Shown piece by piece: positions 989 to 54,676 of a stretch of DNA of 64,000 nucleotides (position 1 is the first letter of the stretch; the number at the start of each line of letters is the position of its first letter). The notes under the pieces were generated by a model that ran no database searches, was not told where the DNA came from, and worked only from the letters and a program-made list of their open reading frames with translations. The stretch is from Acidobacteriota bacterium. GTDB lineage: Bacteria; Acidobacteriota; Thermoanaerobaculia; Multivoradales; J023. The stretch spans positions 111,699-175,698 of the forward strand of contig JAJCXO010000030.1 of assembly GCA_029263395.1 (NCBI GenBank), in the 5' to 3' direction. The position numbers and the translations under genes are program-made.

Positions 989-1210
989 AACTAGATCCCG
1001 CCCCTTTTTGCAATTTCGGTTCGAGGGAGGGAGGCCTTGTGGAGCGATCAAGCAGCGAGCGTGTTTGAGCCTCGCTCCTGGCGCGGGCTCGTATCAGTTT
1101 GCACCAGCAGGACTTAGGCATCTCGCAACAGATCCGCCGAGTTCCCGGAGCTGCGGCGCAGCCCACAAGGCCGATCGCGCTCTCGATGCGCTCTTGGATG
1201 CAATCTAACT
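989..1210. repeat. Dispersed 222-bp repeat element, copy 1 (covarying stem)
   Basis: This copy fills the gap between two convergent genes. It begins AACTAGATCCCGC and ends GGATGCAATCTAACT, imperfect terminal inverted repeats. It shares long blocks with copy 2 at 12172-12396, such as AGCAGCGAGC, GAGCTGCGGCGCAGCCCAC and GACTTAGGC/GGCTTAGGC. An internal 10-bp perfect stem pairs GGCCTTGTGG (1033-1042) with CCACAAGGCC (1163-1172). The right end supplies the TAG stop codon of the minus-strand methyltransferase. Open frames across it are shared with copy 2 only because the DNA is repeated, and they look non-coding. Confidence 0.8.
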
Positions 1211-2608
1211 CTGCCGCGGTTGCAAGAGATACAGGTGGCGTAAGCCATCTTGCAGCTCTTTTCTCTCGAGCACCTCGAAGCGCTCTTCGATACGGGCAAC
1301 GACAAACGCGGTCTCGTAGTCATGTACGGCGCCGCCTTTGTTGCGCAACAGGCGCTGGACCATCGGGTCGCTCTCGGTGACAAGCTCGAGCACCAAATTG
1401 CCGCCGAGCTCGGCGAGCCAGTCGAGCACTTCGGTGACGGGCAGGTTGGCAGTGATCACCAGATGATGAATCAGCGCCAAACAGAGCACCAAGTCCGGCT
1501 GCCCCCGCTCGCTCAGGGTACGACGCTCACGCTCCCGCCAGCCGAGCGCCGGTGAAGGGTCTGCGAGCTGGATGCAGAGCGGCAGCACGTTGCTCGGGCC
1601 GTCCGCCATGAGACGTCGATAGAGATGCTCGACGGCCAGGTGATCACCGTCGATGGCAACCACATAGTCGGCATGCTCGGCGACCAAGCAGCTGTAGTCT
1701 CCTGTGTTGCACCCCAAGTCCCAGACCAAGCCTGGACGCAGCCGACGAGCGGCCTCCTCCACAAAGTGATGCTTCTGATCCCGATCCTCCGAGTCATAAG
1801 AGCAAGCCTGGGTGTAAGACGCCCATTCCGACTCACTTCGGCGCCAGCGCAGTCGCCGCACGATCTTTTCCAACCGCTCGACGTTGTGGACGATCATCTG
1901 CTTACGGAAGCCAGCTCCCCGAAGCTCTTGACGGAGGCTATTCACGGCTTCGGTTTTGGCGTGCGCCGCTTGCAGCCGGGCCTGCAAATAGACATCAGTC
2001 GCAACCCCTGGCCGCAATCTGTCCCACCAGCTGAACAGGCGATTGATCTCCTCGGCACCGATGCCGTCCAACGAACCGCGTAGCCAGGGATGGAATCCGA
2101 CGTCGAGGTAGGCAGTCAGCAGCAGCGGATAGAGGTATAGCTGGCAGAATTGGAGATAACCCGCCCAGGGATCGCCGTCAATCCAGGTCTCGAAGGAGGC
2201 AATGTCGATGAAAACCGGGTGCGTGCCCTGCCACTGCACGTTGTAGGACGAGGCGTCCTTGAGGATCATGTCGTCATCAAGAGCCAGCCTGAGCAGTTCG
2301 AGCTGCAACAAAGCAGCATCGCGCAGCATGCCGAAAGACCACTCGTAGGGATAAGAAACGAAGGCTATACGTCGATGCTCGAGGGTTGCTACCCAGCCTT
2401 CGGCGGCAAGCTCCTCCGGCATCTCCACGCGGTGGGTTGCAACCACCTTCCCGGCATCACTCAGGCGCTCGAAAAAAGCGGTTGCGGCGAGCGTTTCCCA
2501 AGCGTCGAGCGCCCGAGGGCTTAGAGCCCGCAGCACCCGATCCCCGGAATAGACAACTCGCCCTTCGCGGTCGCGGAAGGACCCCGCGTCAAACCGGAGG
2601 CTGGTCAT
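1205..2608 (-). CDS. SAM-dependent methyltransferase with kinase-like N-terminal region
   Basis: A 467-residue protein. The C-terminal half has a class I methyltransferase core: motif I LVWDLGCNTGDYSCLVAEH, followed by the acidic strand VVAIDGDH and a LALIHHLV strand. The N-terminal half carries DASSYNVQWQGTHPVFIDI, which resembles the catalytic loop and metal site of small-molecule kinase folds. This two-part architecture is seen in NoeA-like methyltransferases. The ATG at 2608 is preferred over the longer frame to 2782. It follows GAGCAGG, and the longer frame would read through the small gene at 2589-2801. The two genes overlap by 20 bp, which suggests translational coupling. The substrate is unknown; proximity to a sulfatase-like enzyme hints at glycan or lipid modification. 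Confidence 0.75.
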   Translation of the reverse strand: MTSLRFDAGSFRDREGRVVYSGDRVLRALSPRALDAWETLAATAFFERLSDAGKVVATHRVEMPEELAAEGWVATLEHRRIAFVSYPYEWSFGMLRDAALLQLELLRLALDDDMILKDASSYNVQWQGTHPVFIDIASFETWIDGDPWAGYLQFCQLYLYPLLLTAYLDVGFHPWLRGSLDGIGAEEINRLFSWWDRLRPGVATDVYLQARLQAAHAKTEAVNSLRQELRGAGFRKQMIVHNVERLEKIVRRLRWRRSESEWASYTQACSYDSEDRDQKHHFVEEAARRLRPGLVWDLGCNTGDYSCLVAEHADYVVAIDGDHLAVEHLYRRLMADGPSNVLPLCIQLADPSPALGWRERERRTLSERGQPDLVLCLALIHHLVITANLPVTEVLDWLAELGGNLVLELVTESDPMVQRLLRNKGGAVHDYETAFVVARIEERFEVLERKELQDGLRHLYLLQPRQS

Positions 2609-2801
2609 CCTGCTCTTTTTTGATCCCCAGAAAGCCCAGTAGCTTGCGCCAGTAGAGCTTGACAGCCAACGCGACCCCCGCGGCGCCGCCGAGGAGCAGC
2701 TGAAGAAACATGCTGCCAGAGGCCGGATCGAGATAAGCGTGAGCAGGCACCGCTGACAACAGCAGGATGATCGCAAGTGCAAAAAGATGAGTTTTGTTCA
2801 T
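2589..2801 (-). CDS. Small membrane protein with AYLDPxSGS motif
   Basis: 70 residues: a hydrophobic signal-like N-terminus ending near AHA, the motif AYLDPASGSMFLQLLLGG, one further membrane segment, and a basic then acidic tail (KKEQDDQ). Small proteins with an AY(I/L)DPGSGS motif recur next to sulfatase-like and methyltransferase genes in several phyla; their function is not established. The gene is upstream of and overlaps the methyltransferase gene, so the two are probably one transcript. Confidence that it is real rests on the recognisable motif and the overlap. Confidence 0.7.
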   Translation of the reverse strand: MNKTHLFALAIILLLSAVPAHAYLDPASGSMFLQLLLGGAAGVALAVKLYWRKLLGFLGIKKEQDDQPPV

Positions 2802-2942
2802 GGCAGCTCGAGATGGACGGTGAATCCTTAGCTTATCACCGGCAGCTCAACGGACGGCGGGTACAAGATCAAACGGCCGACCTTGCCCGGCAACAGCGTG
2901 CGTGGTTCAATAGCGTATCCATTTTAGGTAGAGGAGGCTTCG

Positions 2943-3608
2943 ATGCGGTGGCAGGTTCGTCATTTCATCAATCTGCACAAAGCACTTGTGACGCCTGTCG
3001 TTCTCGGGCTCATGGCCTTCTATGGCGAATGGGGCGAAACGGCTTTCGTTTATCTAGCACTACACGGTAGTTATGCGATCTTGTGGCTGATCAAGGAGGC
3101 GACGTTTCGCGACCGACGGTTCGAGGAGGAGATCGCCTTCCCAATCGGGGTCTGTTTTGTCTTCCTGCCGCTGGTCAGCTATTGGGTGGCACCGTGGCTC
3201 ATCACCTCACGCCACCTAACAGCGCCGCCGTGGCTACTTGGCCTATCAGTAGCGCTGGTAGTCTTTGGTACCTTCCTGCACTACGTTGGTGATGCTCAGA
3301 AGCATTACGTGCTACACCTGCGGCGCGGGCTGATCACCGACGGCCTGTTCAGCCGCACCCGCAATCCCAACTACCTTGGCGAAATGCTGATCTACGCCGG
3401 CTTCGCTAGCCTGGCACAACACTGGCTGGCCTGGGTGGCGCTGCTGCCCTGGTGGGCTTTCTTCGTTAAGAACATGTTGGCTAAAGACGAGTCCATCTCT
3501 CGTTATCCAGACTTCGCCGCCTACCGCCAACGCTCGGGCTTGCTGGTTCCTCGCGTCTTGCCAACCCGTAAGACACTGAGCTCAGAAACATCCCACGATC
3601 CGGGCTGA
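2943..3608 (+). CDS. Isoprenylcysteine methyltransferase-like integral membrane protein
   Basis: 221 residues with about five membrane segments and the C-terminal signature of the ICMT/PEMT-type membrane methyltransferases: GLITDGLFSRTRNPNYLGEM, then a membrane helix and YPDFAAYRQRSG. In this family the RNPNYLGE loop binds SAM and the Y-x-x-Y/R tail closes the active site. Bacterial members methylate varied lipophilic or thiol substrates, so the exact substrate cannot be named. A strong ribosome-binding site (AGAGGAGG, 2931-2938) sits before the ATG. The gene is monocistronic and converges on the SDR at 3702-4412; the 93-bp gap shows no convincing terminator. Confidence 0.8.
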   Translation: MRWQVRHFINLHKALVTPVVLGLMAFYGEWGETAFVYLALHGSYAILWLIKEATFRDRRFEEEIAFPIGVCFVFLPLVSYWVAPWLITSRHLTAPPWLLGLSVALVVFGTFLHYVGDAQKHYVLHLRRGLITDGLFSRTRNPNYLGEMLIYAGFASLAQHWLAWVALLPWWAFFVKNMLAKDESISRYPDFAAYRQRSGLLVPRVLPTRKTLSSETSHDPG

Positions 3609-3701
3609 CGATCTCGAGACGCCGCTGGCCCGGCTTGTCGTAGACGGAATCGCAGATCAACCAGCGATGGGATCGGGACCCTGGCTTATCACCCTGCTCG
3701 G

Positions 3702-4412
3702 CTACACCGAACGGGTCAGCCCACCATCAACCCGCAGGTTCTGACCGGTGATGTACCCCGCCTCGTCCGACAGCAAGAAGGCCGCGGTGTTGGCAATCTC
3801 TTCGACCTGGCCGAAGCGCCCAGCTGGAATCTCAGCGACCAGATGGGCTTCTTCGGGATAACTATCGATAAAACCCGGCAGTATGTTGTTCATCCGGATG
3901 CCGGCCGACGCATAACGGGTCGCAAAAAGCTTGGTGAAGCTGCCGAGAGCGGCACGCAAGGAGGAGGAAAGCGGAAAATCAGCGCTCGGCTCATAGGCTG
4001 AAAAAGTCGAAATGTTGACCAGGGCACCGCCACCTTGCTTCTCCATGATCGGCGTCACTAGACGCGCCAGGCGGACTACATTCAACACCACCAGATCAAA
4101 GGCAGCATGCCAGTCGTCATCCGAGAGGTCGAGAATCGGCCCAGTCGCCGGATGGCCAGTGTTGTTGACTACGGCGTCGATCCGTCCCCATTCTTCGACC
4201 GTGGCATCCACCATTGCGGCGAGGTCCGCTGGCTCGGTGACCGAGCCCCGAAACCCCAGACCGCCAAGCTCGGCGGCCAACTCCGCGGCAGCGTCGGAGG
4301 TCGACATCAACGCAACCCGGTAACCGCGGGAAGCTAGCTCACGGGCACAAGCAGCCCCCATTCCGCGGCCAGCGGCGGTGACGATGGCGACGGGCTCTCG
4401 AGTTGCTGGCAT
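3702..4412 (-). CDS. Short-chain dehydrogenase/reductase-like protein with altered catalytic tetrad
   Basis: 236 residues. The N-terminal Rossmann motif is TAAGRGMGAACA, the NNTG motif matches NNAG, and the C-terminus GYITGQNLRVDGG is typical of FabG-like SDRs. Where the catalytic YxxxK is expected, the sequence reads LSSSLRAAL after SADFP, so Tyr is replaced by Ser and Lys by Arg. Members with this SS.LRA pattern form a recognisable subgroup annotated as oxoacyl-ACP reductases, but conventional hydride transfer is doubtful. The start is backed by AGGAGA upstream of the ATG. It is divergent from the regulator gene at 4561. Confidence 0.8.
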   Translation of the reverse strand: MPATREPVAIVTAAGRGMGAACARELASRGYRVALMSTSDAAAELAAELGGLGFRGSVTEPADLAAMVDATVEEWGRIDAVVNNTGHPATGPILDLSDDDWHAAFDLVVLNVVRLARLVTPIMEKQGGGALVNISTFSAYEPSADFPLSSSLRAALGSFTKLFATRYASAGIRMNNILPGFIDSYPEEAHLVAEIPAGRFGQVEEIANTAAFLLSDEAGYITGQNLRVDGGLTRSV

Positions 4413-4560
4413 CGGTCGTATCTCCTGGTTCGTCTATAGATAGTTTGGTGACCCATCGAGCCTAACACTCACCCTCCCCTCGTTACACATCACCCTTGGT
4501 CGAGCAGCACCTCTGAGACCAGCACTTCCGAGCCCAATTCAATCTCACCGCCTGTGTAGA

Positions 4561-6054
4561 ATGAGGACTGTGGATCTCCAGACCCAACGGGCCACCGACT
4601 TCGCCGAAAAGCGGCGCATTCTCCAGCTCGAGACGCTCTACGATCTGGCTCTGGCGCTGCACGCCAATCGATCGGAAAGTGAACTGATCGAGGAACTCTT
4701 GCAGCGAGTTTGCGCGGTGCTAGATCCTGCCGCTGCCGCGGCCGTCACCCGGGACCCCTACGGCAGTGCTCGCTCATTGGCCATGGTCGGCTGGGCAGGT
4801 ACGACACCAGACGGCGATGCAATGCTTACCGATCCACTGTGGAGCGATCTGTTGGCCGAAGGCAAAGGTATCGCACGCCATGACGGCGAATGGATGCAAC
4901 GCCCCTATCGCGAACTGATTACCACCCCCTTGGTCTATCGCGGCGTCTACCTCGGCTACATCGTACTGATCGACAAAGAGTCGCGAGGAGATCCCGATCC
5001 AACCTATAGCACCGCCGATCGTCGCTTCCTCGATTCGGTGGCGGCCTTGGCCGGTGTTGCTCTCGACAGCGCACGCCAGCTAGAAGAGCTCGCGACACAA
5101 CGCGAACGCCTGCAAGAAGAGAACAAGATTCTCAAGGGACGACTGGTCGAAGAGTTCGCTGGCGAGCGCATCGTCGCGCAGGCTCCTCCCATGCGCCAAG
5201 TGGTCGACATGGTCGAGCGCATCGCGCCGCGCAAAGTCACGGTTCTGCTCAAGGGTGAAAGCGGCACCGGCAAGGAGTTGATAGCCAAGTTGGTCCACAC
5301 CCTATCGGGACGCAGCGGGGCCCTGATCGCCATCAACTGCGCGGCGCTCCCAGAGTCCCTACTCGAAAGTGAGCTCTTCGGGATCGAAGGCGGCGTCGCG
5401 ACCGGCGTCCAGGCGCGGCGCGGCAAATTCGAGTTGGCTGACGGCGGCAGCTTGTTTTTGGATGAGATCGGCGATCTCGAACTCCCCCTGCAGGTCAAAC
5501 TTCTCAGGGCCCTGCAAGAACGTGAGGTGACACATTTGGGGGGACACCAAGCGATTCCAGTCGACGTCCGAGTCATCGCTGCAACCCATCGCAATCTGGA
5601 ATCTCTGGTGGAGGAAGGTCGCTTTCGAGAGGACCTCTACTATCGGCTCAAGGGGGTCGACGTCGAACTGCCACCGTTACGCCAAAGGCGGCAAGATATC
5701 CCCCATATGGTGCGTCTGTTCTCCGAAGAGTTCTGTCAACGGGAGCAGATCCCTACTCCGCAACTCGAGCCCGAAGCGCTAGCCCTGTTGTTGGCCTACG
5801 ACTATCCCGGCAATGTGCGCGAGCTCCAGAACCTGATCGAGGGAGCGGTCTCTTTGGCCAAAGGGGTCATCGACGTTGACCTGATTACGAGCCTGCTTGG
5901 CGGTAGCGACGCGGAATCTGATAATCCTCTTGATCTCGACACGATCGAGCGTCGGCATATCAATCGGGTAATCCGACTGACCGGCGGCAACAAAAGCGCC
6001 GCGGCTCGACTGCTCGGCATTGATCGACGCACGCTTCAGCGCAAAGGACACTAA
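4561..6054 (+). CDS. Sigma-54-type enhancer-binding protein: GAF, AAA+, Fis-type HTH
   Basis: 497 residues. An N-terminal GAF sensor (about 20-175) is followed by a short coiled coil and the AAA+ core: Walker A GESGTGKE, then CAALPESLLESELFG, Walker B GGSLFLDEIGDL, and the sensor stretch DVRVIAATHRNL. A Fis-type HTH closes the protein (GGNKSAAARLLGIDRRTLQRK). It would bind upstream sites and remodel RNA polymerase-sigma-54 in response to a GAF ligand. The GAFTGA loop that contacts sigma-54 reads GVATGV (residues 278-283), which is unusual. Downstream lie three dyad sites, a sigma-54-like promoter and a partner-switching operon, the obvious target. There is no receiver domain, so control is probably by ligand rather than phosphorylation. 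The start has a weak ribosome-binding site. Confidence 0.9.
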   Translation: MRTVDLQTQRATDFAEKRRILQLETLYDLALALHANRSESELIEELLQRVCAVLDPAAAAAVTRDPYGSARSLAMVGWAGTTPDGDAMLTDPLWSDLLAEGKGIARHDGEWMQRPYRELITTPLVYRGVYLGYIVLIDKESRGDPDPTYSTADRRFLDSVAALAGVALDSARQLEELATQRERLQEENKILKGRLVEEFAGERIVAQAPPMRQVVDMVERIAPRKVTVLLKGESGTGKELIAKLVHTLSGRSGALIAINCAALPESLLESELFGIEGGVATGVQARRGKFELADGGSLFLDEIGDLELPLQVKLLRALQEREVTHLGGHQAIPVDVRVIAATHRNLESLVEEGRFREDLYYRLKGVDVELPPLRQRRQDIPHMVRLFSEEFCQREQIPTPQLEPEALALLLAYDYPGNVRELQNLIEGAVSLAKGVIDVDLITSLLGGSDAESDNPLDLDTIERRHINRVIRLTGGNKSAAARLLGIDRRTLQRKGH

Positions 6055-6068
6055 GAGCGTCCGCGACT

Positions 6069-6083
6069 GTGACATTTCGCCGC
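6069..6083. promoter_or_regulatory. Dyad site 1 (half-conserved), probable activator site
   Basis: The sequence GTGACATTTCGCCGC matches the left half (GYGACA), the TTT spacer and four of six right-half bases of site 2. Its centre is 19 bp from that of site 2, close to two helical turns. This is the weakest of three related sites lying 200-230 bp upstream of the putative promoter at 6283. Confidence 0.45.
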
Positions 6084-6087
6084 GCAC

Positions 6088-6102
6088 GCGACATTTTGTC
6101 GC
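6088..6102. promoter_or_regulatory. Dyad site 2 (perfect), probable enhancer for the GAF-AAA-Fis regulator
   Basis: GCGACATTTTGTCGC is a perfect inverted repeat with 6-bp arms and a TTT centre. It starts 33 bp after the stop codon of the enhancer-binding protein and lies about 190 bp upstream of the sigma-54-like promoter, the usual enhancer distance. Fis-type HTH dimers bind such symmetric sites. That this regulator is the one that binds here is inferred from adjacency. Confidence 0.65.
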
Positions 6103-6165
6103 AACCGTCTCGAGGCCCTTGAACTCCGGCATCTGGCGCCTGTTGTCAGATAATCCAGTTCAAGA

Positions 6166-6184
6166 GTGCGACATTTTGTCACAC
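6166..6184. promoter_or_regulatory. Dyad site 3, probable enhancer
   Basis: GTGCGACATTTTGTCACAC is a 19-bp inverted repeat with one mismatch. Its 15-bp core is identical to site 2 at 14 positions. The centre-to-centre distance to site 2 is 80 bp. Together the three sites give the multi-site arrangement expected for cooperative binding by an enhancer-binding protein. Confidence 0.65.
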
Positions 6185-6282
6185 AGCGTCGATCCGACAA
6201 TTCGGCTTTCCCTCCAGCGCAAAATTAATAAACAACTTACTCTCAATACATTAGGAGGTTTCCAACGGATCTTGTCGAAACC

Positions 6283-6298
6283 TGGCAGAGGCCTTGCG
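6283..6298 (+). promoter_or_regulatory. Sigma-54-type promoter (-24/-12)
   Basis: TGGCAGAGGCCTTGCG fits the TGGCA-N6-TTGC pattern, with exactly ten bases between the invariant GG and GC. Transcription would start near 6309, about 20 bp before the ATG of the 60-residue gene at 6331. Its position downstream of three symmetric sites and of an enhancer-binding protein gene makes a chance match unlikely. Confidence 0.65.
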
Positions 6299-6330
6299 AA
6301 ACAAAACCTTGAACCAGCGAGGAGGCACTC

Positions 6331-6513
6331 ATGCTAGAATCAGGTCGAAATCGCGATGTCGCAATTTCTGGGGTCCCAGCCCAGATGCTCTCTGGAGCAT
6401 CAATTCAGGTGCTAAGTTCGGCCGGCACCCTGTTGAGTTTCGCTTGGCTCTTGCTGCAAAACAAGATTCATCCCTTCGTGGTCTACCTACTCCAGGTCTA
6501 CTTGACCTTCTGA
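6331..6513 (+). CDS. Orphan 60-residue protein, first gene of the putative sigma-54 operon
   Basis: A short frame preceded by a strong ribosome-binding site, GAGGAGG, seven bases before the ATG. The protein has a polar N-terminus (MLESGRNRDVAISG) and a hydrophobic C-terminal half (SFAWLLLQNKIHPFVVYLLQ) able to form one membrane or amphipathic helix. I recognise no family. It is the first gene after the -24/-12 promoter and precedes the RsbW-like gene by 43 bp, so it may be the main output of the promoter or a membrane partner of the switch. The strong ribosome-binding site is the chief support; codon evidence from 60 codons is limited. Confidence 0.5.
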   Translation: MLESGRNRDVAISGVPAQMLSGASIQVLSSAGTLLSFAWLLLQNKIHPFVVYLLQVYLTF

Positions 6514-6556
6514 GGATTGCCCGATCAACCCGCCGGCCACCGCCGGGACTAGTGCT

Positions 6557-6976
6557 ATGCAGCAAGTGAGGCTCACGCTGCCCATGATCCCCAACATGGA
6601 GCTCACCGCCAGTAAAACGGCGTGCGCGATGGGGGAGCAGATCGGCCTGAGCCCAGACAAGATCGACGAAGTGCAGATGGCGGTCGTCGAGGCTTGTATC
6701 AACGCCTTCGAGCACAGTGGTGCTTCGGACCGCGAAGTACGGATCCTGCTACAGGTCCTCGGCTCGGAAGATGAGCCAAATGGTCTGGAAATCACCATTC
6801 AAGATGGGGGTGGCGGCTTCACCCCTGATAAGATTCCCCGACGAGGCAGTGAAGAGAATCTCAAGGCTCCGCGTAAGAGAGGACATGGTCTGAGGATCAT
6901 TGATGGATTGATGGATGAAGTGGACATCCGGTCCGATTCCGAAGGAACAACCGTCGTCATGCGGAAAATGCGGTGA
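6557..6976 (+). CDS. RsbW/SpoIIAB-like anti-sigma factor / serine kinase
   Basis: 139 residues forming a complete GHKL-type ATPase domain (HATPase_c_2). The N box is EACINAFEHS, the G1 box IQDGGGGF and the G2 box KRGHGLRIIDGLMDEV. In the family, such proteins sequester a sigma factor or other target and phosphorylate a STAS-domain antagonist when ATP is bound. Here the STAS gene follows after 12 bp and a PP2C phosphatase follows that, so a full partner switch is encoded. No sigma factor gene is in the window; the target is unknown. There is no histidine-kinase dimerisation domain. Confidence 0.9.
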   Translation: MQQVRLTLPMIPNMELTASKTACAMGEQIGLSPDKIDEVQMAVVEACINAFEHSGASDREVRILLQVLGSEDEPNGLEITIQDGGGGFTPDKIPRRGSEENLKAPRKRGHGLRIIDGLMDEVDIRSDSEGTTVVMRKMR

Positions 6977-6988
6977 CGGGAGTATTCG

Positions 6989-7342
6989 ATGACTGAGAGT
7001 CTAAAGCTGACCGTTGACGACCAACGGGACGGCCTGTCGGTGATCTACACCGATGGATACATCAACAACCAAGGCGGCGAGGAGATCGCACGAGTCGCCT
7101 ACGAGTTGATCGAGAAGGGGCAAAAATGCCTCTTGCTAAACCTTGCAGGTACAAAAATCGTCAATTCGATCGGTATCTCGATCCTGATCGAGATCATCGA
7201 GAAGATGTTGGAGATCGATGGGAAACTGGCTTTTTGCAGCCTGACGCCAACGATCGAAAAGACATTCCACATTATGGGTCTCGCCCAGTATGCCGGGATC
7301 TACCCCGACGAGGACAACGCCGTCAGCATAATGACTTCGTGA
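6989..7342 (+). CDS. STAS-domain anti-sigma factor antagonist (RsbV/SpoIIAA-like)
   Basis: 117 residues, a single STAS domain. The conserved loop is TKIVNSIGISILIE. Ser60 in NSIG aligns with the serine phosphorylated by RsbW-type kinases, although the usual preceding Asp is Asn here. When dephosphorylated, such proteins bind the anti-sigma factor and release its target. It lies between the kinase gene (12 bp upstream) and the PP2C-type phosphatase gene (54 bp downstream), in the normal order for a partner-switch operon. Confidence 0.9.
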   Translation: MTESLKLTVDDQRDGLSVIYTDGYINNQGGEEIARVAYELIEKGQKCLLLNLAGTKIVNSIGISILIEIIEKMLEIDGKLAFCSLTPTIEKTFHIMGLAQYAGIYPDEDNAVSIMTS

Positions 7343-7396
7343 GGCTTGTATCCTCACGGTGGCGCTTGATCCTCGCCTTGACGAACTAAAAAAGCC

Positions 7397-10307: not shown

Positions 10308-10665
10308 AAAAGCCTTAGGTAAGGCTGAAGCGCGCGACAACGTCAGTTCCTCAATCTCTTCTCGGATGCCGTCTTTAGACTGGTACCGTCTTTGGACGAT
10401 GGCCGAGATGGGTGTCTTGTGAAGACGTGAATGGTCGGCTCGCGCTGCTGCGGAAGCCACGAAACCAGTTTACCAGGTCTGGCGTACGCTACGTCAGCAG
10501 ATGTCTGCCCCAAACACGCTCCCAACTTGCTCACGATAGAAGCGTCCCCCAGATCCGTCGGTGGCAAGACCGGGCGGAATAGAGCAAGATTGGCTTGTGT
10601 CTTGCAAGCTCATCTTGAGAAGATGGGCCAGCGAATCCGTGAGCCCGTCGTTGTAGTGAAAGGTT
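10308..10665. other. Divergent intergenic region, no recognised element
   Basis: 358 bp between the TldE-like gene (minus) and the PIMT gene (plus). The left 150 bp remain open in the TldE frame and could be an N-terminal extension from an ATG at 10460. No clear promoter, dyad or repeat was seen. It must contain the promoters of both genes if the short TldE start is right. Confidence 0.4.
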
Positions 10666-11490: not shown

Positions 11491-11623
11491 GTCCAAAAGA
11501 CCGACGCCCCTTCGCTCAGAGCCCTTCTCTCGATATCCTACGCCTGACGTCGGCGTCGGCCGACGACCGCACATCTGATTCACTGGCGACTAGACGTCGC
11601 CCGACCGAAATATTGAGGACCAC

Positions 11624-12127: not shown

Positions 12128-12135
12128 AACCGAAC

Positions 12136-12166
12136 GCCGCCAGCCCATCTCAATCTGGCTGGCGGC
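12136..12166 (+). terminator. Hairpin after purE, probable terminator
   Basis: A perfect 10-bp stem, GCCGCCAGCC with GGCTGGCGGC, and an 11-nt loop, starting 9 bp after the purE stop codon. No T-run follows (AAGACGAACT), so it may act as a pause or Rho-assisted site, or stabilise the mRNA end. Confidence 0.6.
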
Positions 12167-12171
12167 AAGAC

Positions 12172-12396
12172 GAACTAGATCCCGTCTCGTTTTGCCATTT
12201 TCGGCTCAGCGAGGGAGGTCTTGTGGAGCGAGCAAGCAGCGAGCATGTTTGAGCTTCGCACCTGTTCGCATCTCGTATCCGATAGCACCAAAAGGGCTTA
12301 GGCTTCTCGCGACAGACCCGGCGAGTTCTGGAGCTGCGGCGCAGCCCACAAGACCTCCCTCGCTCTCGGCGCGCATTGGATGGGATCGAACTAGTC
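12172..12396. repeat. Dispersed repeat element, copy 2 (19-bp perfect internal stem)
   Basis: This copy fills the convergent gap between purE and the gene at 12395. It begins GAACTAGATCCCGTC and ends GATGGGATCGAACTAGT, clear terminal inverted repeats. The internal arms AGCGAGGGAGGTCTTGTGG (12208-12226) and its exact complement (12346-12364) form a 19-bp perfect stem. The arm differs from copy 1 by T to C, balanced by A to G in the other arm. A second palindrome, GCTGCGGCGCAGC, sits at the base of the 3' arm. The right terminus provides the TGA stop of the minus-strand gene. Confidence 0.85.
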
Positions 12397-42206: not shown

Positions 42207-42210
42207 AGGA

Positions 42211-47700: not shown

Positions 47701-48539
47701 GCGCCGCGGTCGCCGGGGCAGGATTCGGTCGGCCGATCCGATTGTCATCGGTTGCTGAGGTAGAACTCGGTGAGGGCCCGAGCGAGGTCCGGCGGATCGA
47801 CGGTCGACGGGTTGCACTGGTGCGCGCCAACCTCGCGGATGGATCGCTCGGAGGCGCCGTGAAGCGCATCGAGAGTGAGTTGCGCCGCAAGATCAGCCTG
47901 CCTCCCCACATGGCCTTTTTCATCGCCGGCCAGAGCCAGGAGTGGGAGCGGAGTCAGGCCAGCCTGCTGCTAGCCCTCGGACTCTCGATCTTCTTGGTCT
48001 ACGTGATCATGGCTGCACAATTCGAGTCCCTGATTCATCCATTTGTGATCATGTTCACCATTCCCTTGGCTTTCCTCGGCACTTTTTTGGCGCTGAAAGC
48101 CCTCGGCATCAGCCTGTCGATTGTGGTGTTCCTGGGCATGATCATGTTGGCCGGTATCGTAGTCAACAATGCCATTGTGCTGGTGGACTACATCAACACT
48201 CTGAAACGCCGTGGGCAGTCCTCGATCGACGCGGTAGTAAACGCTGGTAGCGTCCGCCTGCGACCCATTCTGATGACCACCGCCACCACCGTCCTCGGAC
48301 TCACCCCCATGGCGCTGGGACTTGGCGACGGCGCCGAGATCCGCACTCCTATGGCGATCGCGGTCATCAGCGGGCTCATCACCTCCACCGTCCTGACGTT
48401 GTTCATCATCCCGACCTTCTACAGCCTGCTCGATCGCCTGCAAGCCAAGCTGGCGGGACCGGTCGGAGATGACGAATCGCCGGAGACCGAGGCGCATATT
48501 TATGACCGGATGCCGAGCCCCGAGGCCGAGATCGTATGA
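44790..48539 (+). CDS. RND efflux permease, enlarged (AcrB/HAE1 superfamily)
   Basis: 1249 residues, about 200 longer than AcrB. TM1 (FSTNRPVAVLMVFIAAVTFG), porter domains (SYPTLTVRTEYPGSAPEEVE) and the proton-relay region NIMSLGGLALGIGMLVDSSIVVLE are present; the second half has QFESLIHPFVIMFTIPLAF and GMIMLAGIVVNNAIVLVDY. Two insertions stand out. One is a Lys/Glu-rich stretch (AEKKEEKKKF, about 370). The other is a segment of about 120 residues after TM6 with three extra hydrophobic helices (WLVFSLYLVVRFLLHVSL; LILTVLYALGWIGGHLLW; VFYLLTVVPLKLIG). The start is a GTG overlapping the adaptor stop. Confidence 0.9.
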   Translation: MSVPEAPDEPAEKDRDTSPATAAESNKSTPAAPAVDQAAPARRKLTSFSTNRPVAVLMVFIAAVTFGFFSYDRLAVTLMPELSYPTLTVRTEYPGSAPEEVENDISRAIEEALGVIGGLSRISSISRAGVSDVVLEFSWDTDMSDAIQDTLEKLDLVFLPDEAERPLILRFDPSLDPVLELSLSGHGNRFEGTDPAESLRAVRRIAELQVRRALEPIKGVAAVRLRGGLEEEIHVLIDDEQLRRTGLSIQRVIDRLRQENVNVAGGTIKEGRTEYMVRTLNEYENLQQIDDTVITSMNGRDVRVRDIGRVEFAHKEREILTRTNGGDSVQIDIFKEADANMVALSKLVQARLGEFDLEDYLKRQAEGPDAEKKEEKKKFSFGPPDANERGPQAQSKGLAEQLYENEEVLLEVVADRSVFIESSIQEVRNTAVLGGLLAIAVLFVFLRNFKSTAIIAVSSPISLLVTFAPLNLLGVTLNIMSLGGLALGIGMLVDSSIVVLESIFRCREEGDDIATAAVRGVREVRGAVIASTLTSIAVFFPMVFVEGVAGQAFGDLGLAVVISLLAAVVVAISFIPMLASRRGLDLNLADSVQSRLWRLASWPIFRDDWQRSLHWLRDGNTVYKAIPWLVFSLYLVVRFLLHVSLESIGQLILTVLYALGWIGGHLLWPLLTSVFYLLTVVPLKLIGSALESIQRLYPHGLRWALSHPLIVLLIAGALFGTTAWLAIGLDSELLPEVHQGEFTVEVALPVGTPLEETDDVLRPVEEVILAEREHMRSLLLTVGYDAANSQRSDEGEHTARFKVLLDSSDPALETMVVDRLRNRFADIPDLEARVVRPVLFSFKTPVEVEIHGDDLVELRSYAEQVRDVMAAMPELADVDTTQRVGAPEVQIVYNRDLLARYDLNISQVAQQVRNSVKGFEATRFNLKDRRIPILVRFEARDRATVDDVRALLVNPGTAQQTFVPTEGGSSGAAVAGAGFGRPIRLSSVAEVELGEGPSEVRRIDGRRVALVRANLADGSLGGAVKRIESELRRKISLPPHMAFFIAGQSQEWERSQASLLLALGLSIFLVYVIMAAQFESLIHPFVIMFTIPLAFLGTFLALKALGISLSIVVFLGMIMLAGIVVNNAIVLVDYINTLKRRGQSSIDAVVNAGSVRLRPILMTTATTVLGLTPMALGLGDGAEIRTPMAIAVISGLITSTVLTLFIIPTFYSLLDRLQAKLAGPVGDDESPETEAHIYDRMPSPEAEIV

Positions 48540-48649
48540 CGCAACTCGGACAACCTTTCGAGCTATGCTACGTTAGCGAGACCTCCCTCTCACGGCTGAC
48601 AACGGCAGAGCTTCGAAGGAACAAATTTGCTACCGACCTCTTTCGTCTT

Positions 48650-48762
48650 CGTCCCGTCAGGGACGTCATCACTGAGCGAGGGGTTTTCAACCCCTCGTGC
48701 GGGTTCGGTTTCGGCACCAGGGCGCACAGCCGTGCGCCCCTACCCAGAGTCTTGCCGAAACC
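48650..48762. repeat. Cluster of four hairpins between the two RND genes
   Basis: In the 306-bp gap, four perfect stems follow one another. CGTCCC-GTCA-GGGACG lies at 48650-48665. CGAGGGGTT-TTC-AACCCCTCG lies at 48677-48697. A 10-bp outer stem, GGTTTCGGCA with TGCCGAAACC (48707-48716 and 48753-48762), encloses GGGCGCAC-AGCC-GTGCGCCC (48720-48739). The frame that runs through it (48536-48832) looks non-coding. It may be a dispersed element and probably a transcription or mRNA-processing barrier. Confidence 0.8.
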
Positions 48763-48845
48763 AAAGTCTCGCTGCTCCGGCTGTTCCTTGGCAATGAAGC
48801 GCCAAGCAGCGTTACCGCTGGACAGGATCTAGTAAGGAATCATCC

Positions 48846-51800
48846 ATGAGTGATCAAAACCAGCGCGAGTATCTCCTGCCCAGGTTTTCCCTCGATCGAC
48901 GAGTCACCGTGCTGGTGCTGCTAGCGACCGCTTTGGTGGTTGGCGTCATCGCTACCGTCGGCATTCCCTTGGAGCTGTTGCCACGGGGCTTCACCGAACC
49001 TTCGTTGACGGTGCGAGCGGTGTGGACCGATTCGCCATCACAAGAAGTTCTCGACAAAGTCACCTTGCCGTTGGAGGAAGAGCTCAGCACCATCCCGGGG
49101 CTGACCAACCTCTTCGCCTTTGCCTCCACCGGCTTCACCCGGTGCCACATGACCTTCAAACTCGGCACCGACATGGATGTCGCTTATCGCGAGGTCCGCG
49201 ATCGCGTCGAACGCGCCAAAGCGCGGCTGCCGGATGAAGTAGAGAACGTCTTCATCCACAAATTCGATTCGGCGAGTATTCCAGTCTACGGCGTAGGCTT
49301 GGCAATCGACCCCGAACTGACAGATGCCTATGATCTGATCCAGAACGAAGTCATTCTGCCGTTGCAGCGCCTCGAAGGTGTTGCCAATATCGAAGCGCAG
49401 GGTCTGGAGCAGAAGGAAATTCTGATCGAGCTCGATCGCAAACGCACCGTCGCCAGCGGGCTCAATATCTGGGAGCTCGGACTCGATCTCGCCGACGACA
49501 ACTTCACCCTCGCCAGTGGCCACGTCAACGCCGGCGGTAAAAAACTCCTACTGCGATCGGTGGCGAAGTATCCGAGTGTCGAGGCACTCGAGAACCGGTT
49601 GGTTGGACCGTCGGTCCGGCTCAAAGATATTGCCACCGTCAGCTACCAAGAACCCGAAAAGAAGTACCGGGCTCGCATTGACGGCTTCCCGGCAGTTGCC
49701 TTGATGGTGTTCAAAGAAGGTGAGGCCAACGCCATCACCGTGTCCGATGCCTTGGATGCAGCGATCAAGAAGATCCAAGCCAATCCACGACTGGCATTGA
49801 TCGACGTCGAGCCCTTTCTCAGCCAAGGCAACATCATCCGTGAGTCTCTCGACACCTTGCTCAATAGCGGTGCGGTCGGCGGAGTCATCGCGCTGTTGGT
49901 GTTGTTCTTGTTCTTGCGTCGATTCAGGTTGACGCTGATCATCGCCTTGTCGATCCCCTTGAGCCTATTGGTCGGCTTGACCGCAATGTACTTTGCTGGC
50001 GAGACCCTGAATATCTTTTCGCTGCTCGCCTTGATGATTTCGGTCGGACTCCTGGTCGACAACTCGGTGGTGGTGGCGGAAAACATCTTCCGGCTGCACG
50101 CTGCCGGTTTGGGGCGTCGCGAGGCGTCGATTCAGGGTGCTGGCCAAATCTCGCTGGCCATCATCATGGCTACCTTGACCACGATCATTGTTTTCCTACC
50201 GGTGTCGCTGGTCGAAGGTCAAGGACAGTTCATCCTGTTGCGGTTGGCTATCCCGATCACGGTTTCACTTGCCGCCTCGCTGTTTGTGGCGCTGATTTTT
50301 GTGCCACTCTCGGTTTACCTCACGCTTCCCGGCAAGGGTGCCCGTCGTCGTAAGAATCATCTCGGCGAAGCACTGCGAAACGGCTTACGCCTGGCCTACG
50401 AGGGCTCGTTCGGCCGCCTCAACCGGGCCTATCGATCGATGCTGGCGTTCTTCCTTCATCGCCGCATGGACCTGGTCATGGCGCTGTTGGTGGTCATTGC
50501 CCTGTCATCCCAGTTTGCGTTCAAAGAGGTGGATCAAGTTGCGATCCAAGAGGAAGAGCAGGGCATGTTCGAGATCGATGTCGTGTTGCCCCAATCGACC
50601 ACCCTCGAAGAATCGTCGGAGTACTTCGACGCAACCGAAAAATTCCTCGAGGCCAATCGAGAAGAGCTCGACCTTCAGGGCTACTTCATCTTCAATCGCG
50701 CCGCCTTTGGTGAAGTGCAAGGCTGGTTCAAGAGTCCACGTGAGAATGACTTGTCGCCTCGCGAAGCGATCGAACGCATCAGCGCGGCACTGCCGGACAA
50801 GGCCGGCGTCAAGATCTACACCGGGCTCGAGAGTGACGATGAGAAGGATACCCAAGCCATCCACGTCTTCACGCTGTATGGTGAAGACTCCAAACAACTG
50901 GAAGATCTAGCCGAGAACCTGGAAGATGTCTTCGTCTCGGTGGACGGTGTGCTCGGTATCAAACGCTCCGGTGATCGTCCGGCGGAAGAGATTGGCTTGG
51001 TGGTGGACCGCGAACGTGTCCAACGCCTGAACCTCAATCCCGAGGCGGTAGCGGGCATCGTACGCAACTCCCTCGGTGGACGTGCGTTACCCAAGTTTTA
51101 TCGCGACGGGCGAGAGATCCCGGTCAGGGTCCGATTCCAAGAGAAGGATCGTGAAAGCCTGCGCGAGCTCAACAACTTCCAGGTGCCGACCAACACCGGT
51201 GAGTCCGTCACGCTGGCAAGTGTGACCGATGCCGAACGTCTGGACGCACCGCGGCGTATCTTCCGCCGCAACAAGCGGGTCGCACGCAGCATCACGGTGG
51301 AGTTGGAGGAGGAGCGCGAGAAGCAGGCACGGGCAGGGCTAATCGCCCTCGCCAGTCGAATCGACTTACCTGAAGGCGTGAGCTTCGGACAGCCGCGGCG
51401 CAACAACAGTGAAGAGGACAACAACCGAGCGATGGTTTTCGCGATGTTACTTTCGGTGGTCTTCATCTACCTGTTGATGGGCTTCCTATTCGAAAGTTTC
51501 ATCCTGCCGTTGTCGATTGTCCTGACTATTCCAATGGCTGCAATCGGCGTCTATTGGGCCCACTACCTCGCCGGCTACGATTTGGACGGTCTCGGTATGG
51601 TGGGCATCGTCCTGTTGATCGGTGTGGTGGTCAACAACGGCATCGTGCTGGTGGATTACATCAACCGGTTGCGGACGCGGGGCGCGTCGCGCAGCGAGGC
51701 GGTACTCGACGCCGCAGATCGTCGCTTTCGACCGATTATGATGACCGCTCTGACCACCATCGGTGGCATGATTCCTCTGACGATCAGCAGCTCGAGCTCG

Positions 51801-52055
51801 ATCGGCCTGAGTTACAAGAGCTTTGGTTTGACGCTGATCGGCGGGATGACCACGGCCACCTTGCTGACCCTGCTGGTCGTACCGGTGGCCTACACCCTGT
51901 TCGACGACTTGCGCGAGAAGACAAGTGCCGTTCTGCGTCGCGCCCTCGGCAAGGCAAACCGGCAGGCCAGTGACGGCGGCACGTTGGACGGCGGTACGTT
52001 GGACGGCGGTACGTTGGACGGTGGTACGACAGACCCTGCGGAAGCGTTAGCTTGA
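48846..52055 (+). CDS. RND efflux permease, second subunit
   Basis: 1069 residues, standard size. FSLDRRVTVLVLLATALVVG (TM1), TEPSLTVRAVWTDSPSQEV, NIFSLLALMISVGLLVDNSVVVAENIF (TM4 acidic relay) and MVGIVLLIGVVVNNGIVLVDY (second half). Ribosome-binding site AAGGA. It follows one adaptor and another permease in the same direction, as in two-permease systems of the MdtBC kind, although a 306-bp structured gap separates them. The last residues are a 15-bp repeat product (DGGTL x4). The stop overlaps the TTG of the rhomboid gene. Confidence 0.93.
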   Translation: MSDQNQREYLLPRFSLDRRVTVLVLLATALVVGVIATVGIPLELLPRGFTEPSLTVRAVWTDSPSQEVLDKVTLPLEEELSTIPGLTNLFAFASTGFTRCHMTFKLGTDMDVAYREVRDRVERAKARLPDEVENVFIHKFDSASIPVYGVGLAIDPELTDAYDLIQNEVILPLQRLEGVANIEAQGLEQKEILIELDRKRTVASGLNIWELGLDLADDNFTLASGHVNAGGKKLLLRSVAKYPSVEALENRLVGPSVRLKDIATVSYQEPEKKYRARIDGFPAVALMVFKEGEANAITVSDALDAAIKKIQANPRLALIDVEPFLSQGNIIRESLDTLLNSGAVGGVIALLVLFLFLRRFRLTLIIALSIPLSLLVGLTAMYFAGETLNIFSLLALMISVGLLVDNSVVVAENIFRLHAAGLGRREASIQGAGQISLAIIMATLTTIIVFLPVSLVEGQGQFILLRLAIPITVSLAASLFVALIFVPLSVYLTLPGKGARRRKNHLGEALRNGLRLAYEGSFGRLNRAYRSMLAFFLHRRMDLVMALLVVIALSSQFAFKEVDQVAIQEEEQGMFEIDVVLPQSTTLEESSEYFDATEKFLEANREELDLQGYFIFNRAAFGEVQGWFKSPRENDLSPREAIERISAALPDKAGVKIYTGLESDDEKDTQAIHVFTLYGEDSKQLEDLAENLEDVFVSVDGVLGIKRSGDRPAEEIGLVVDRERVQRLNLNPEAVAGIVRNSLGGRALPKFYRDGREIPVRVRFQEKDRESLRELNNFQVPTNTGESVTLASVTDAERLDAPRRIFRRNKRVARSITVELEEEREKQARAGLIALASRIDLPEGVSFGQPRRNNSEEDNNRAMVFAMLLSVVFIYLLMGFLFESFILPLSIVLTIPMAAIGVYWAHYLAGYDLDGLGMVGIVLLIGVVVNNGIVLVDYINRLRTRGASRSEAVLDAADRRFRPIMMTALTTIGGMIPLTISSSSSIGLSYKSFGLTLIGGMTTATLLTLLVVPVAYTLFDDLREKTSAVLRRALGKANRQASDGGTLDGGTLDGGTLDGGTTDPAEALA
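51975..52034. repeat. 4 x 15-bp tandem repeat at the RND C-terminus
   Basis: GGCGGCACGTTGGAC, GGCGGTACGTTGGAC twice, then GGTGGTACGACAGAC, encoding (GGTLD)n. It lies 21 bp before the stop codon. Confidence 0.85.
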
Positions 52056-52933
52056 GTATTTTCAAACGAGCCACCAGTGGTTCGATCGTTTGCCCTCAGT
52101 GTGGTCGCCTGGTTGGCGTCCAAGACAAACAATGCCTGGGTTGTGGCCGTACCAACCCGGGTTTGTGGGGCTTTGCGCCGTTGGTCAACAGACTCGGGCA
52201 ACAACTCGACTTCGAATTCGTGGTCCGCTACGGCTGTATCTTGCTGTTCGGAATCTCGCTCTTCATGGGATTGAACGAGGTTAATCTCAAGGGTTTTTTC
52301 TCTTTCTTGTCGCCAGGCGGCCGCCCTCTTTTGATCCTTGGCATGAGCGGTGCAACCCCGGTCTTCGAATACGGACGTTGGTGGACTGTGCTGAGCGCCG
52401 CCTGGTTACACGGTGGCGCGTTGCATCTGGTGCTGAACATCATCTGGATTCGACGCCTGTCCGACATCATCAAAAGCTACTTTTCGTTTTCGCAGCTGTT
52501 CATCATCTACACCGTCGCTTCCGCCACCGGCTTTCTGCTCAGCTCGGTAATGGCACTCTTCCCGTTTCTTCCTGGCCCGCTCCGCGGCGCCTACTTCACC
52601 GTTGGGGCTTCGGCGCCACTGTTTGGCCTATTCGGTGCGTTGGTTTTTGCCGGCCGACGGACCGGCAATCGTGCCCTCGCCGATTACGGCAGGCAGTTCG
52701 TGATCATCTGGCTGGCGATCGGCTTCCTGCTCGGGTTCGGAGATGCTCTCCAGATCCGAATCGATAATTGGGCACATCTCGGTGGCTTCGCAGGCGGTTA
52801 CGCCGTGGCCGTTCTCCTCGATCCCAACCAGGACCGACCCGAAAATCCTAAACACGTCATGATCGGTATCGCCTGTATCGTGATGATGGCGTTGTCGATC
52901 ATCGTATCGATCGTCGATGCCTACGCCGGCTGA
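52052..52933 (+). CDS. Rhomboid intramembrane serine protease with N-terminal zinc ribbon
   Basis: 293 residues from a TTG at 52052 overlapping the RND stop (TTGA). N-terminal C14PQC17 and C28LGC31 form a zinc ribbon. Six or more membrane segments follow, with the rhomboid features WRWxT-like GRWWTVLSAAWLHGGALHLVLN, the catalytic serine in GASAPLFGLFG (S187) and the catalytic histidine in NWAHLGGFAGGY (H242). The dyad is intact, so it should be active on transmembrane substrates. Downstream lies a Cdc48-type ATPase gene after 141 bp. Confidence 0.9.
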   Translation: MSIFKRATSGSIVCPQCGRLVGVQDKQCLGCGRTNPGLWGFAPLVNRLGQQLDFEFVVRYGCILLFGISLFMGLNEVNLKGFFSFLSPGGRPLLILGMSGATPVFEYGRWWTVLSAAWLHGGALHLVLNIIWIRRLSDIIKSYFSFSQLFIIYTVASATGFLLSSVMALFPFLPGPLRGAYFTVGASAPLFGLFGALVFAGRRTGNRALADYGRQFVIIWLAIGFLLGFGDALQIRIDNWAHLGGFAGGYAVAVLLDPNQDRPENPKHVMIGIACIVMMALSIIVSIVDAYAG

Positions 52934-53032
52934 TCCGTCGACCATATTTCACAAAAGCCTAGGCTAGCGACAACGGATGGTTTGGTGGAGAATGAAACTC
53001 CAAGAAGCGAGCGGCCCATCCGAACAGCCCCG

Positions 53033-53060
53033 TCCGAGAAGACCTATCCGAGAAGACCAC
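53033..53060. repeat. 2 x 14-bp tandem duplication upstream of the AAA ATPase start
   Basis: TCCGAGAAGACCTA and TCCGAGAAGACCAC. It lies just before the ATG at 53075, supporting that start over one at 52982. Confidence 0.5.
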
Positions 53061-53074
53061 AGCGAAGACACCTG

Positions 53075-54454
53075 ATGGACGATAAGACACTAGATGCATT
53101 GAAGACGGCTCTGAGTGCTACGCCGGACAATTTGGAGCTGCGGATGATCGTCGTAGCGGCTCATGTGGAGCGCGACGAAGAGTCCACTGCGTACGGTCTG
53201 ATCCAAGACATCGAGCCCGAAGATATGACGTCCGATCAACGCGCCCTGGGAGCCCGAACCTGCCTGGCAGCGGACGCCCCCGAAGATGCCCTCGCGTGGG
53301 TCGGAGACGAAGCACCGAGCGACAATGAGGACGCCGAGTTACTGATCGCTCGGGCTCGCACCTATCTAGCCTTGGAGCGCCATGCGGACGGCCTCGACTG
53401 TTATCGCGCCGCCGTGGCCAAGAGTCCTGCGCTTGAAGACCTTGGACTGCGCGATCGCTTGAACCTCAAAGTCCGGGACTTTCACAAGCCAGATCACAAA
53501 CCCACTCAGGACAGGCCCCGTCTGCGGGTACTCTCGAACGACGACACCGATGACATCGAGACCACTCGGCTGCTGATGCCCCCAGAAGAGACGGTGACCT
53601 TCAGTGACGTCGGCGGCCTGAAGGGCATCAAGAAGCAAATCCATCGACGGATCATCCTGCCGTTCCAAAAACCGTCCTTGATGCAACGTTTCAAGAAACG
53701 GGTCGGCGGCGGCATCCTGCTCTACGGTCCGCCAGGCTGCGGTAAAACGTTGCTCGCCCGCGCCACCGCCGGCGAATGTGACGCCCGCTTCCTCAATGTC
53801 GCAATCAGCGACATCCTCGACATGTACACCGGCGAGTCGGAGCGAAAACTCCACGCCATCTTCGAGAAAGCCCGCAGCAGTGCTCCCGCCGTGCTGTTCT
53901 TCGACGAAGTTGAGGCCCTTGGCGGCAAACGGCAATACACTCGCGAGTCACACTCTTCGAAGCTGGTCAGCCAGTTCTTGTCGGAGATGGACGGCTTCGC
54001 ACAGAACAACAGCGGAGTACTGATCCTCGGCGCCACCAACGTCCCGTGGTCGATCGATCCAGCGTTCAGGCGTCCCGGTCGATTCGATCGATTGCTTTTT
54101 GTTCCCCCTCCGGACGCCGAAGCTAGGAAAACGATTCTCGAGTTGCATCTCGCGGACCGCCCGGTGGCACCCAAAATCGACTACAAGTATTTGGTCAAAA
54201 ATACCTCAGGATTCTCCGGTGCCGACCTCTTCAACCTGGTCGAAACCGCAACCGACGAGGCGATTGAAGATTCGATCGACTCGGGCGAAGAGAGTCCGCT
54301 CAGCGATGCGCATTTGCGTCAATCGTTGCGCGAGGTCAAACCCACGACGCTCGAATGGCTCACCACAGCCCGCAACTACGCCCGCTACGCCAACGAAGCC
54401 GGCCAATACGACGAAGTCCTCGACTTCCTCGAAAAGCACAGTAAACAACGCTAG
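53075..54454 (+). CDS. Cdc48/FtsH-type AAA+ ATPase with helical N-terminal domain
   Basis: 459 residues from the ATG at 53075. The first 140 residues are TPR-like helices (AELLIARARTYLALERHADG). The AAA+ domain (about 175-420) starts with VTFSDVGGLKGIKKQIHRRI, typical of the CDC48/FtsH/proteasomal clade. Walker A is GPPGCGKT (218-225) and Walker B AVLFFDEVEAL (D277, E278). The arginine-finger/SRH region is FRRPGRFDRLLFVPPPD, and the helical subdomain has SGFSGADLFNLVETATDEA. No protease domain or membrane helix. It likely unfolds or extracts proteins for partners encoded around it. Confidence 0.9.
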   Translation: MDDKTLDALKTALSATPDNLELRMIVVAAHVERDEESTAYGLIQDIEPEDMTSDQRALGARTCLAADAPEDALAWVGDEAPSDNEDAELLIARARTYLALERHADGLDCYRAAVAKSPALEDLGLRDRLNLKVRDFHKPDHKPTQDRPRLRVLSNDDTDDIETTRLLMPPEETVTFSDVGGLKGIKKQIHRRIILPFQKPSLMQRFKKRVGGGILLYGPPGCGKTLLARATAGECDARFLNVAISDILDMYTGESERKLHAIFEKARSSAPAVLFFDEVEALGGKRQYTRESHSSKLVSQFLSEMDGFAQNNSGVLILGATNVPWSIDPAFRRPGRFDRLLFVPPPDAEARKTILELHLADRPVAPKIDYKYLVKNTSGFSGADLFNLVETATDEAIEDSIDSGEESPLSDAHLRQSLREVKPTTLEWLTTARNYARYANEAGQYDEVLDFLEKHSKQR

Positions 54455-54676
54455 CTAGTTTGATTCCGGAAACCCATTTCTTCGCCTTCCAGGAAGGCCC
54501 CTGTAGAGCGAGCACGCGGCGAGTATGTATGAGCAAGAGAACAGATCCTAGCTCTCCAAACTATTGGAACCAATGGGGTCGGCAGACATTGAGGCGCCGA
54601 GGCGAGTTACGGAGCAGCGCGCGCAGTCCACAGGGGGCGACCGGGAAACCCCGTTCTTGGATGGGCACTAGCTAAG
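54452..54676. repeat. Dispersed repeat element, copy 3 (divergent)
   Basis: It begins at the AAA gene stop (CTAGCTAGTTTGATTCC) and ends GATGGGCACTAGCTAAG, again inverted termini of the ACTAG type. Shared blocks with copies 1 and 2: TAGAGCGAGCACGCGGCGAG, GGCGAGTTACGGAGC and TTCTTGGATGGGC. The stem is kept although its bases changed: GCCCCTGT (54497-54504) faces ACAGGGGGC (54630-54638). This copy separates two co-directional genes and ends three bases before the next ATG. Confidence 0.7.

Follow-up and report, generated by a model that had tools for sequence, protein, structure and literature searches.

Three copies of the repeat in the window

The window analysed here (the whole stretch of 64,000 nucleotides from an Acidobacteriota bacterium, contig JAJCXO010000030.1, positions 111,699 to 175,698) contains three copies of a structured repeat, designated w1, w2, and w3. 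Below, G000 denotes the genome to which the window belongs, G001 a congeneric genome, and L numbers individual loci. Inspection of the sequences found the three copies, similar in length, at the positions reported in the original prediction. The element proper is about 210 bp long, has the ends GATCCC...GGGATC, and contains two helices, P1 and P2, whose arms are given here on the plus strand.

Copy w1 (994-1205, plus strand, G-ATCCC...GCAAT-C) belongs to subfamily A, with 85.6% identity to its consensus, and lies between the target repeats CAACTA (988-993) and TAACTC (1206-1211), which match at four of six positions. Its P1 arms are GGCCTTGTGG (1033-1042) and CCACAAGGCC (1163-1172), and its P2 arms, assigned from the sequence and the helices of the family, are GCAGC (1052-1056) and GCTGC (1150-1154). 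Copy w2 (12178-12387, plus strand, G-ATCCC...GGGAT-C) is also a member of subfamily A (91.4% identity to the consensus) and is bounded by an exact 6-bp duplication, GAACTA, at 12172-12177 and 12388-12393; P1 is formed by GGTCTTGTGG (12217-12226) and CCACAAGACC (12346-12355), and P2 by GCAGC (12236-12240) and GCTGC (12333-12337). Copy w3 (54458-54668, plus strand) was assigned to subfamily B (89.5% identity to the consensus of that subfamily), and the 6-bp sequence TAGCTA is exactly repeated on its two sides (54452-54457 and 54669-54674). Its P1 arms are GCCCCTGT (54497-54504) and ACAGGGGGC (54630-54638), and its P2 arms, GCGGC (54516-54520) and GCAGC (54614-54618), contain one mismatch. Copies w2 and w3 constitute rows A_L001 and B_w3 of A2, a MAFFT alignment of 29 representatives of seven subfamilies from three genomes, of which w1 itself is not a row. 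In all three copies the arms of the long-range stem pair as had been described.

Concerning the neighbouring genes, w1 and w2 are placed in convergent gaps, as predicted, and w3 in a tandem (+,+) gap. The proposal that CTAG-containing ends form the stop codons of genes holds for w1, whose right side is touched by the stop codon (1205-1207) of the minus-strand gene 1205-2782, and for w3, where TAG (54452-54454) in the left duplication terminates the plus-strand gene 52982-54454. It does not hold for w2, as both neighbouring genes end in TGA outside the repeats. Similarly, the "ACTAG-type terminal inverted repeats" of the original prediction turned out to be mainly 6-bp target duplications, although the element does possess inverted ends of its own, i.e., the GATCCC-like and GGGATC-like termini. 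Between the stop codon of the AIR carboxylase gene and w2 there is also a hairpin (GCCGCCAGCC...GGCTGGCGGC, 12136-12166), and the element-free G001 gap described below carries, judged by eye, a different hairpin at the corresponding place.

Ends, target duplications, and insertion sites

To delimit the element, 66 copies were aligned by their core, and afterwards 166 matches were fitted to the subfamily consensus sequences. The flanks were then compared in 112 full-length copies with both flanks available (92 from G000, eight from G001, and 12 from a third genome, G002), which revealed the same flanking consensus octamer, CTARYTAG, on the left and on the right. Agreement between the two flanks of a copy was 0.69, 0.69, and 0.67 at octamer positions 3, 4, and 6, against the expected 0.40, 0.50, and 0.51. 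At positions 1, 2, and 5, where the bases hardly vary, it exceeded expectation by 0.04-0.07. There was no excess at the outermost positions, 0 and 7, the base adjoining the element being nearly fixed, and beyond the octamer the excess was at most 0.05. A target repeat of 8 bp was ruled out, because the element-adjoining bases are nearly fixed without left-right agreement. We therefore infer that the duplication comprises the 6 bp TARYTA and that the element starts with G-ATCCC and ends with GGGAT-C.

Permutation of the flanks confirmed that most full-length copies carry target-site duplications. Exact 6-mer flank pairs occurred in 46 of the 112 copies (permuted mean 6.2, maximum 15 in 2000 permutations), and the mean flank match was 4.11 of 6 bases, compared with 3.32 after permutation (sd 0.08; maximum 3.58 in 5000 permutations). 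A duplication of 6 or 7 bp fitted 71/112 copies, against 27.9 in the permuted data (maximum 38); it was 6 bp long in 66 copies and 7 bp long in five, the permuted values being 27.4 and 0.5, respectively. Inverted ends of the GATCCCRTCCAR type are present on both sides in most rows of A2; their outer bases differ by subfamily, and a few rows lack an inverted end (e.g., the right end of F_L107).

An orthologous site free of the element was found for w2. The AIR carboxylase encoded beside this copy has an orthologous protein in G001 (96% identity), which is followed by the same downstream gene, and the alignable flanks of the locus are 86 bp apart in G001 compared with 279 bp in G000. As 86 bp is too short for the element, w2 is absent from the G001 gap. 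A second empty site was sought at w3, whose neighbouring gene had no ortholog in six relatives, and the comparison of 31 G001 loci with the G000 loci (matches of at least 280 bp) yielded nothing beyond the w2 locus and B-A dimers common to both genomes. Adjacent copies were informative as well: eight of 16 pairs are exactly 8 bp apart, i.e., share one octamer, one pair is 9 bp apart, 14/16 join different subfamilies, and the arrangement A- B+ occurs in 6/16. The 8-bp junctions were read as nested insertions and counted in favour of a mobile element.

Genes were called by a simple method based on codon usage, and 88 of the 92 full-length copies in G000 could be positioned relative to them: 40 lie in convergent, 34 in tandem, and 12 in divergent gaps, one is at an edge, and one overlaps a gene. 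An enrichment in convergent gaps, which the original prediction had suggested checking, was indeed found: 40/86 copies, compared with 22/117 background gene pairs (p = 2.9e-5), or 16/87 pairs when only gaps of at least 30 bp were considered (p = 8.9e-5), where members of dimers were counted separately and the copies are thus not all independent. The background consisted of the window and 14 long stretches, fetched near element ends. Among 114 gene 3' ends facing an element, 39 have their stop codon inside the octamer, at a distance of 0 bp (17 ends) or 4 bp (22 ends); this is the case in 33/86 copies, and in 6/40 convergent pairs both genes end there. In the background, 22 TARYTA sites were found, eight of them inside genes and three at stop codons. 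Eight sites have C or G, as in the octamer, on one or both sides; none of these lies inside a gene, and three are at stop codons, so the target alone can explain the position at stop codons, and an active choice of these codons need not be assumed, although the sample is small. In tandem gaps the element is oriented along the genes in 16 cases and against them in 18, i.e., there is no strand preference.

Paired interior and distribution of the family

Folding of single copies as RNA, compared with shuffled sequences, gave z values of -4.2 for w2, -2.0 for w1, and -1.3 for w3, the last of which makes the folding of w3 unconvincing when taken by itself. The alignment A2 was more informative. RNAalifold predicted 22 pairs, comprising the long irregular helix P1, P2 enclosed in P1, and a weak four-pair hairpin near the 3' end, which was left out of the pair count, so that 18 pairs were counted. 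Of 510 cells, 92.0% are paired, compared with 78.5% in shuffled alignments and 30-45% when the structure was slid, the latter control being lenient since this alignment had also served for the prediction. Both partners are changed at 13/18 pairs (7.0 in shuffled alignments) and in 63 cells (20.3 shuffled), and the covariation is 0.349 compared with 0.135. The compensatory character of these changes is illustrated by P2, which reads GCAGC/GCTGC in subfamily A, GGGGC/GCCCC in D, CAGCC/GGCTG in C (L110), and CGGCC/GGCCG in E (L112). The middle pair of P2 fails in 8/29 rows, including w3, and a mismatch is present in L119 and L124.

The second alignment, A4, was built by fitting 58 matches (56 distinct) of the covariance model R1, from 38 chosen loci in nine genomes, to the structure. 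Here 89.7% of the cells are paired, and 216 of them are doubly changed, against 59 after shuffling; P2 pairs in 83.1% of its cells, its middle pair failing in 29/56 matches. Invariant stretches adjoin the helices. Further hairpins (P0, P4, and P5) and base pairing between the two ends were read from the alignments and remained outside the covariation count. The compensatory changes in both helices, in A2 and in A4, uphold the idea that pairing is under selection.

The repeat is numerous in its own genome. When up to three mismatches are allowed, a core motif of 29 bases has 161 sites in the 10.68-Mb genome and its reversed control none, and all 150 scored candidates, out of 2850 at first look, matched the covariance model, so there are at least 150 genomic copies. 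In the blastn search there were 58 matches, 40 of them with an E-value of 1.1e-59 or better (40 of 189 candidates were scored). Six G000 contigs (C2, C168, C172, C176, C236, and C265) have core matches less than 200 bp from a contig end; the repeat may thus break the assembly, and the real copy number may exceed the count. What had been described from three copies, and proposed for a covariance-model search of the genome and its relatives, is therefore a large family with strong compensatory change and not a chance resemblance.

G000 and G001 share subfamilies A and B; C, F, and G occur in G001, and D and E in G002. The core motif is present in 3/72 genomes of the order. Model R1, run class-wide with stricter filters, matched 9/148 genomes, six from the same family as G000 and three from two other families of the same order, whereas the broader model R2 matched at least 4/396 genomes of the phylum, all of the same order; the latter number is a minimum, because eight candidates were scored in each genome. 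All genomes in which the repeat family was found here belong to a single order of Acidobacteriota. The element end is present in G006 (L243, TTTCTGGATGGGATC) and was not seen, by eye, in G012, G020, and G025. Clusters of the folding core occur in other genera. In G025 (L235, C70) three near-identical core units stand in tandem, 192 bp apart, in G020 (L236, C50) there is a cluster of degenerate tandem core units, and in G004 (L249, C198) folding cores are clustered in alternating orientation. No blastn match to w2 was found among phages and plasmids, and none of the open-licence PMC papers listed in literature searches describes the repeat in its title or the opening of its abstract.

Several other repeats accompany the elements. 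A second repeat, a hairpin of the form TTGGCG-CTTCNTC-GCCAA, directly follows ATCCCATCCAGC at four G000 ends (L137:791-1150, L134, L141, and L144) and occurs in another form at one G002 end (L109); at L137 two such units stand in tandem, apparently within the right end of an A element. This second repeat may use the element end as its own target. Moreover, the sequence TTGTTMC is found at the left end of four B copies (L164, L175, L183, and L187), and a further palindrome, of the GGCGCACGGCTGTGCGCC type, recurs near G000 elements (flanks of L008 and L055, L137, and L141).

Probable mode of mobility and comparison with known systems

Target duplications, short inverted ends, and one empty orthologous site make the mobile nature of the repeats well supported, and of the roles initially suggested, the one resembling a miniature inverted-repeat transposable element (MITE) agrees with these data. 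The element is also short (about 210 bp) and abundant (at least 150 copies), its coding capacity being judged by length only. The repeats are probably non-autonomous MITE-like transposons with GATCCCRTCCAR ends, which in most full-length copies lie between 6-bp (seldom 7-bp) direct repeats at CTARYTAG, are predicted to be moved in trans by a transposase, and contain two helices with conserved pairing. The enzyme would be of the DDE type and cut the target with a 6-bp stagger, and the folded interior would be needed for propagation, either as DNA or as RNA. The folding module may be older than the MITE form, as genomes of two other families carry the core, partly in tandem, without the ends (by eye). 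The target TARYTA would provide one stop codon per strand, in back-to-back arrangement, and its duplication would restore both. Insertions that hit the inside of a gene would be eliminated; the target sequence and this loss together may account for the location of copies at stop codons.

Several observations weigh against this explanation. No clear duplication, of either 6 or 7 bp, fits 41/112 copies, and how well the duplication is preserved does not follow the divergence of the copies (Spearman 0.16, p = 0.12). There is a single empty site, and since no CTARYTAG octamer can be aligned in it, the exact target as it stood before insertion was not seen. Covariation of an internal structure is not required by ordinary MITEs. 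Finally, the element ends examined led to no mobilising enzyme. The exact end pattern, which would miss departing ends and those in gaps of the draft genomes, has 51 matches in G000, 64 in G001, and nine in G002 (124 in total; controls 1, 3, and 3), and by eye no two of the 124 face each other at 0.6-4 kb. For 16 ends without a full element, 21 adjoining genes were called and 17 of them scanned for Pfam families; none has a transposase domain, 14 belonging to other Pfam families and three to none. Hence, no long element sharing the same ends and no transposase with matching ends was found among the end matches of the three draft genomes, in which no search for DDE families was made.

A tentative and less probable reading is that an old folding DNA module of one Acidobacteriota order, outside the systems of repetitive extragenic palindromes (REP) and RAYT transposases, spreads via an enzyme that recognises invariant internal-loop motifs in the folded strand. 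Within one family this module might have been packaged into a transposon that targets the back-to-back stops of TARYTA, so that every insertion would restore the stops of the genes on its two sides, at almost no cost to the host.

A rather unlikely alternative is that the repeats resemble REP or bacterial interspersed mosaic elements (BIMEs) and are moved, as a folded single strand, by a RAYT or TIRYT enzyme, i.e., a tyrosine transposase of the Y1 (HUH) type, the target repeats being secondary. It would be in line with the folding module, the mosaic dimers (A- B+ in 6/16), the alternating units of G004 L249, and the position downstream of genes. Y1 transposase genes are common (91 matches, in 8/8 genomes searched), and RAYT relatives flanked by terminal inverted repeats (TIRs) are reported in Acidobacteria (PMC3733652). 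Nevertheless, among the 50 of 91 Y1 loci examined with their flanks, including all 18 of G000, one (L389) holds a copy, located about 1 kb from the Y1 gene and on one side only, which is about what the copy density would give, and no association with Y1/RAYT genes was found at these loci. Some G000 Y1 genes (L341, L349, and L354) are flanked by inverted repeats of their own, of the AACCCCGAAGGGGTT and CCCAGGGT types, unlike the element, and Y1 enzymes are not known to make a target duplication. A constant REP tag was also missing from the 58 A4 matches: upstream of P1 there were GTAG 0, CTAC 2, CGTC 6, and GACG 0, and downstream GTAG 1, CTAC 4, CGTC 3, and GACG 13.

Somewhat less probable still is that the mobile element happens to contain a structured non-coding RNA which serves the cell and whose helices would be kept by selection on the RNA. 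Helices of RNA usually contain clearly more G-U than A-C pairs, and P1 and P2 of the A and B copies of G000 do so (54 G-U, 31 A-C; p = 0.017, the copies not being independent), in addition to their compensatory changes and the invariant stretches beside them. In contrast, the P1/P2 cells of the wide set, across genomes, comprise 838 Watson-Crick, 21 G-U, 19 A-C, and 80 other combinations, and in the G000 A and B copies the bias is opposite in P5, the right-hand hairpin (9 G-U vs. 36 A-C), the values for P4 and P0 being 25 vs. 21 and 9 vs. 8; the ends of A copies have 34 G-U and 51 A-C. Because these counts contradict each other between sets, we claim neither a strand nor RNA. A scan of the regions of w2 and w3 gave no sigma-70-like promoter, no Rfam match reached the gathering score of its family (a few weak ones were far below it), there is no strand preference, and many copies are diverged, all of which speaks against the regulatory RNA considered in the original prediction. 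The remaining role proposed there, a bidirectional transcription terminator which selection would maintain in convergent gaps, would fit the 40/86 convergent copies (background 22/117) but is highly improbable, as 46/86 copies are not convergent, no T-tract follows a G+C-rich hairpin in the w2 and w3 regions (the two covered by the scan), the 12136-12166 hairpin already follows the gene upstream of w2, as another hairpin is present, judged by eye, in the G001 gap that lacks the element, and the target alone may seat insertions at stops (3/8 background sites, a small sample).

The repeat offers a clear, testable case of selection on pairing inside a MITE, which ordinary models of these elements do not ask for, and its target sequence would render insertion at gene ends harmless. 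With it, a phylum that has been little studied gains a high-copy repeat family for which Rfam has no model. Caution is needed in similar cases, as enrichment in convergent gaps and contact with stop codons can stem from the choice of target alone and not from a terminator role.

Among known systems, insertion sequences of the IS5 type target CTAG-like sites, to which the target of the present element is related, but they produce a duplication of 4 bp and not of 6 bp. Units of REP, BIMEs, and REPINs, with their RAYT or TIRYT enzymes, likewise fold, form dimers, and lie between convergent and unidirectional genes, and in Acidobacteria TIR-flanked RAYT relatives (Y1 genes) with TIR repeat families have been reported (PMC3733652). 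The REP palindromes of 20-40 bp differ from the two-helix module of about 145 nt found here, which moreover has no constant GTAG/CGTC tag, is not located beside Y1 genes, and is associated with 6-bp duplications. MITEs of bacterial insertion sequences (PMC2229807; see also PMC6382973) are similarly short, non-autonomous, intergenic, and present in high copy, with inverted ends and target duplications. Unlike them, the element described here has no parent insertion sequence found so far and a palindromic target, CTARYTAG, and its interior is under selection for pairing and is common to repeats that do not have these ends.

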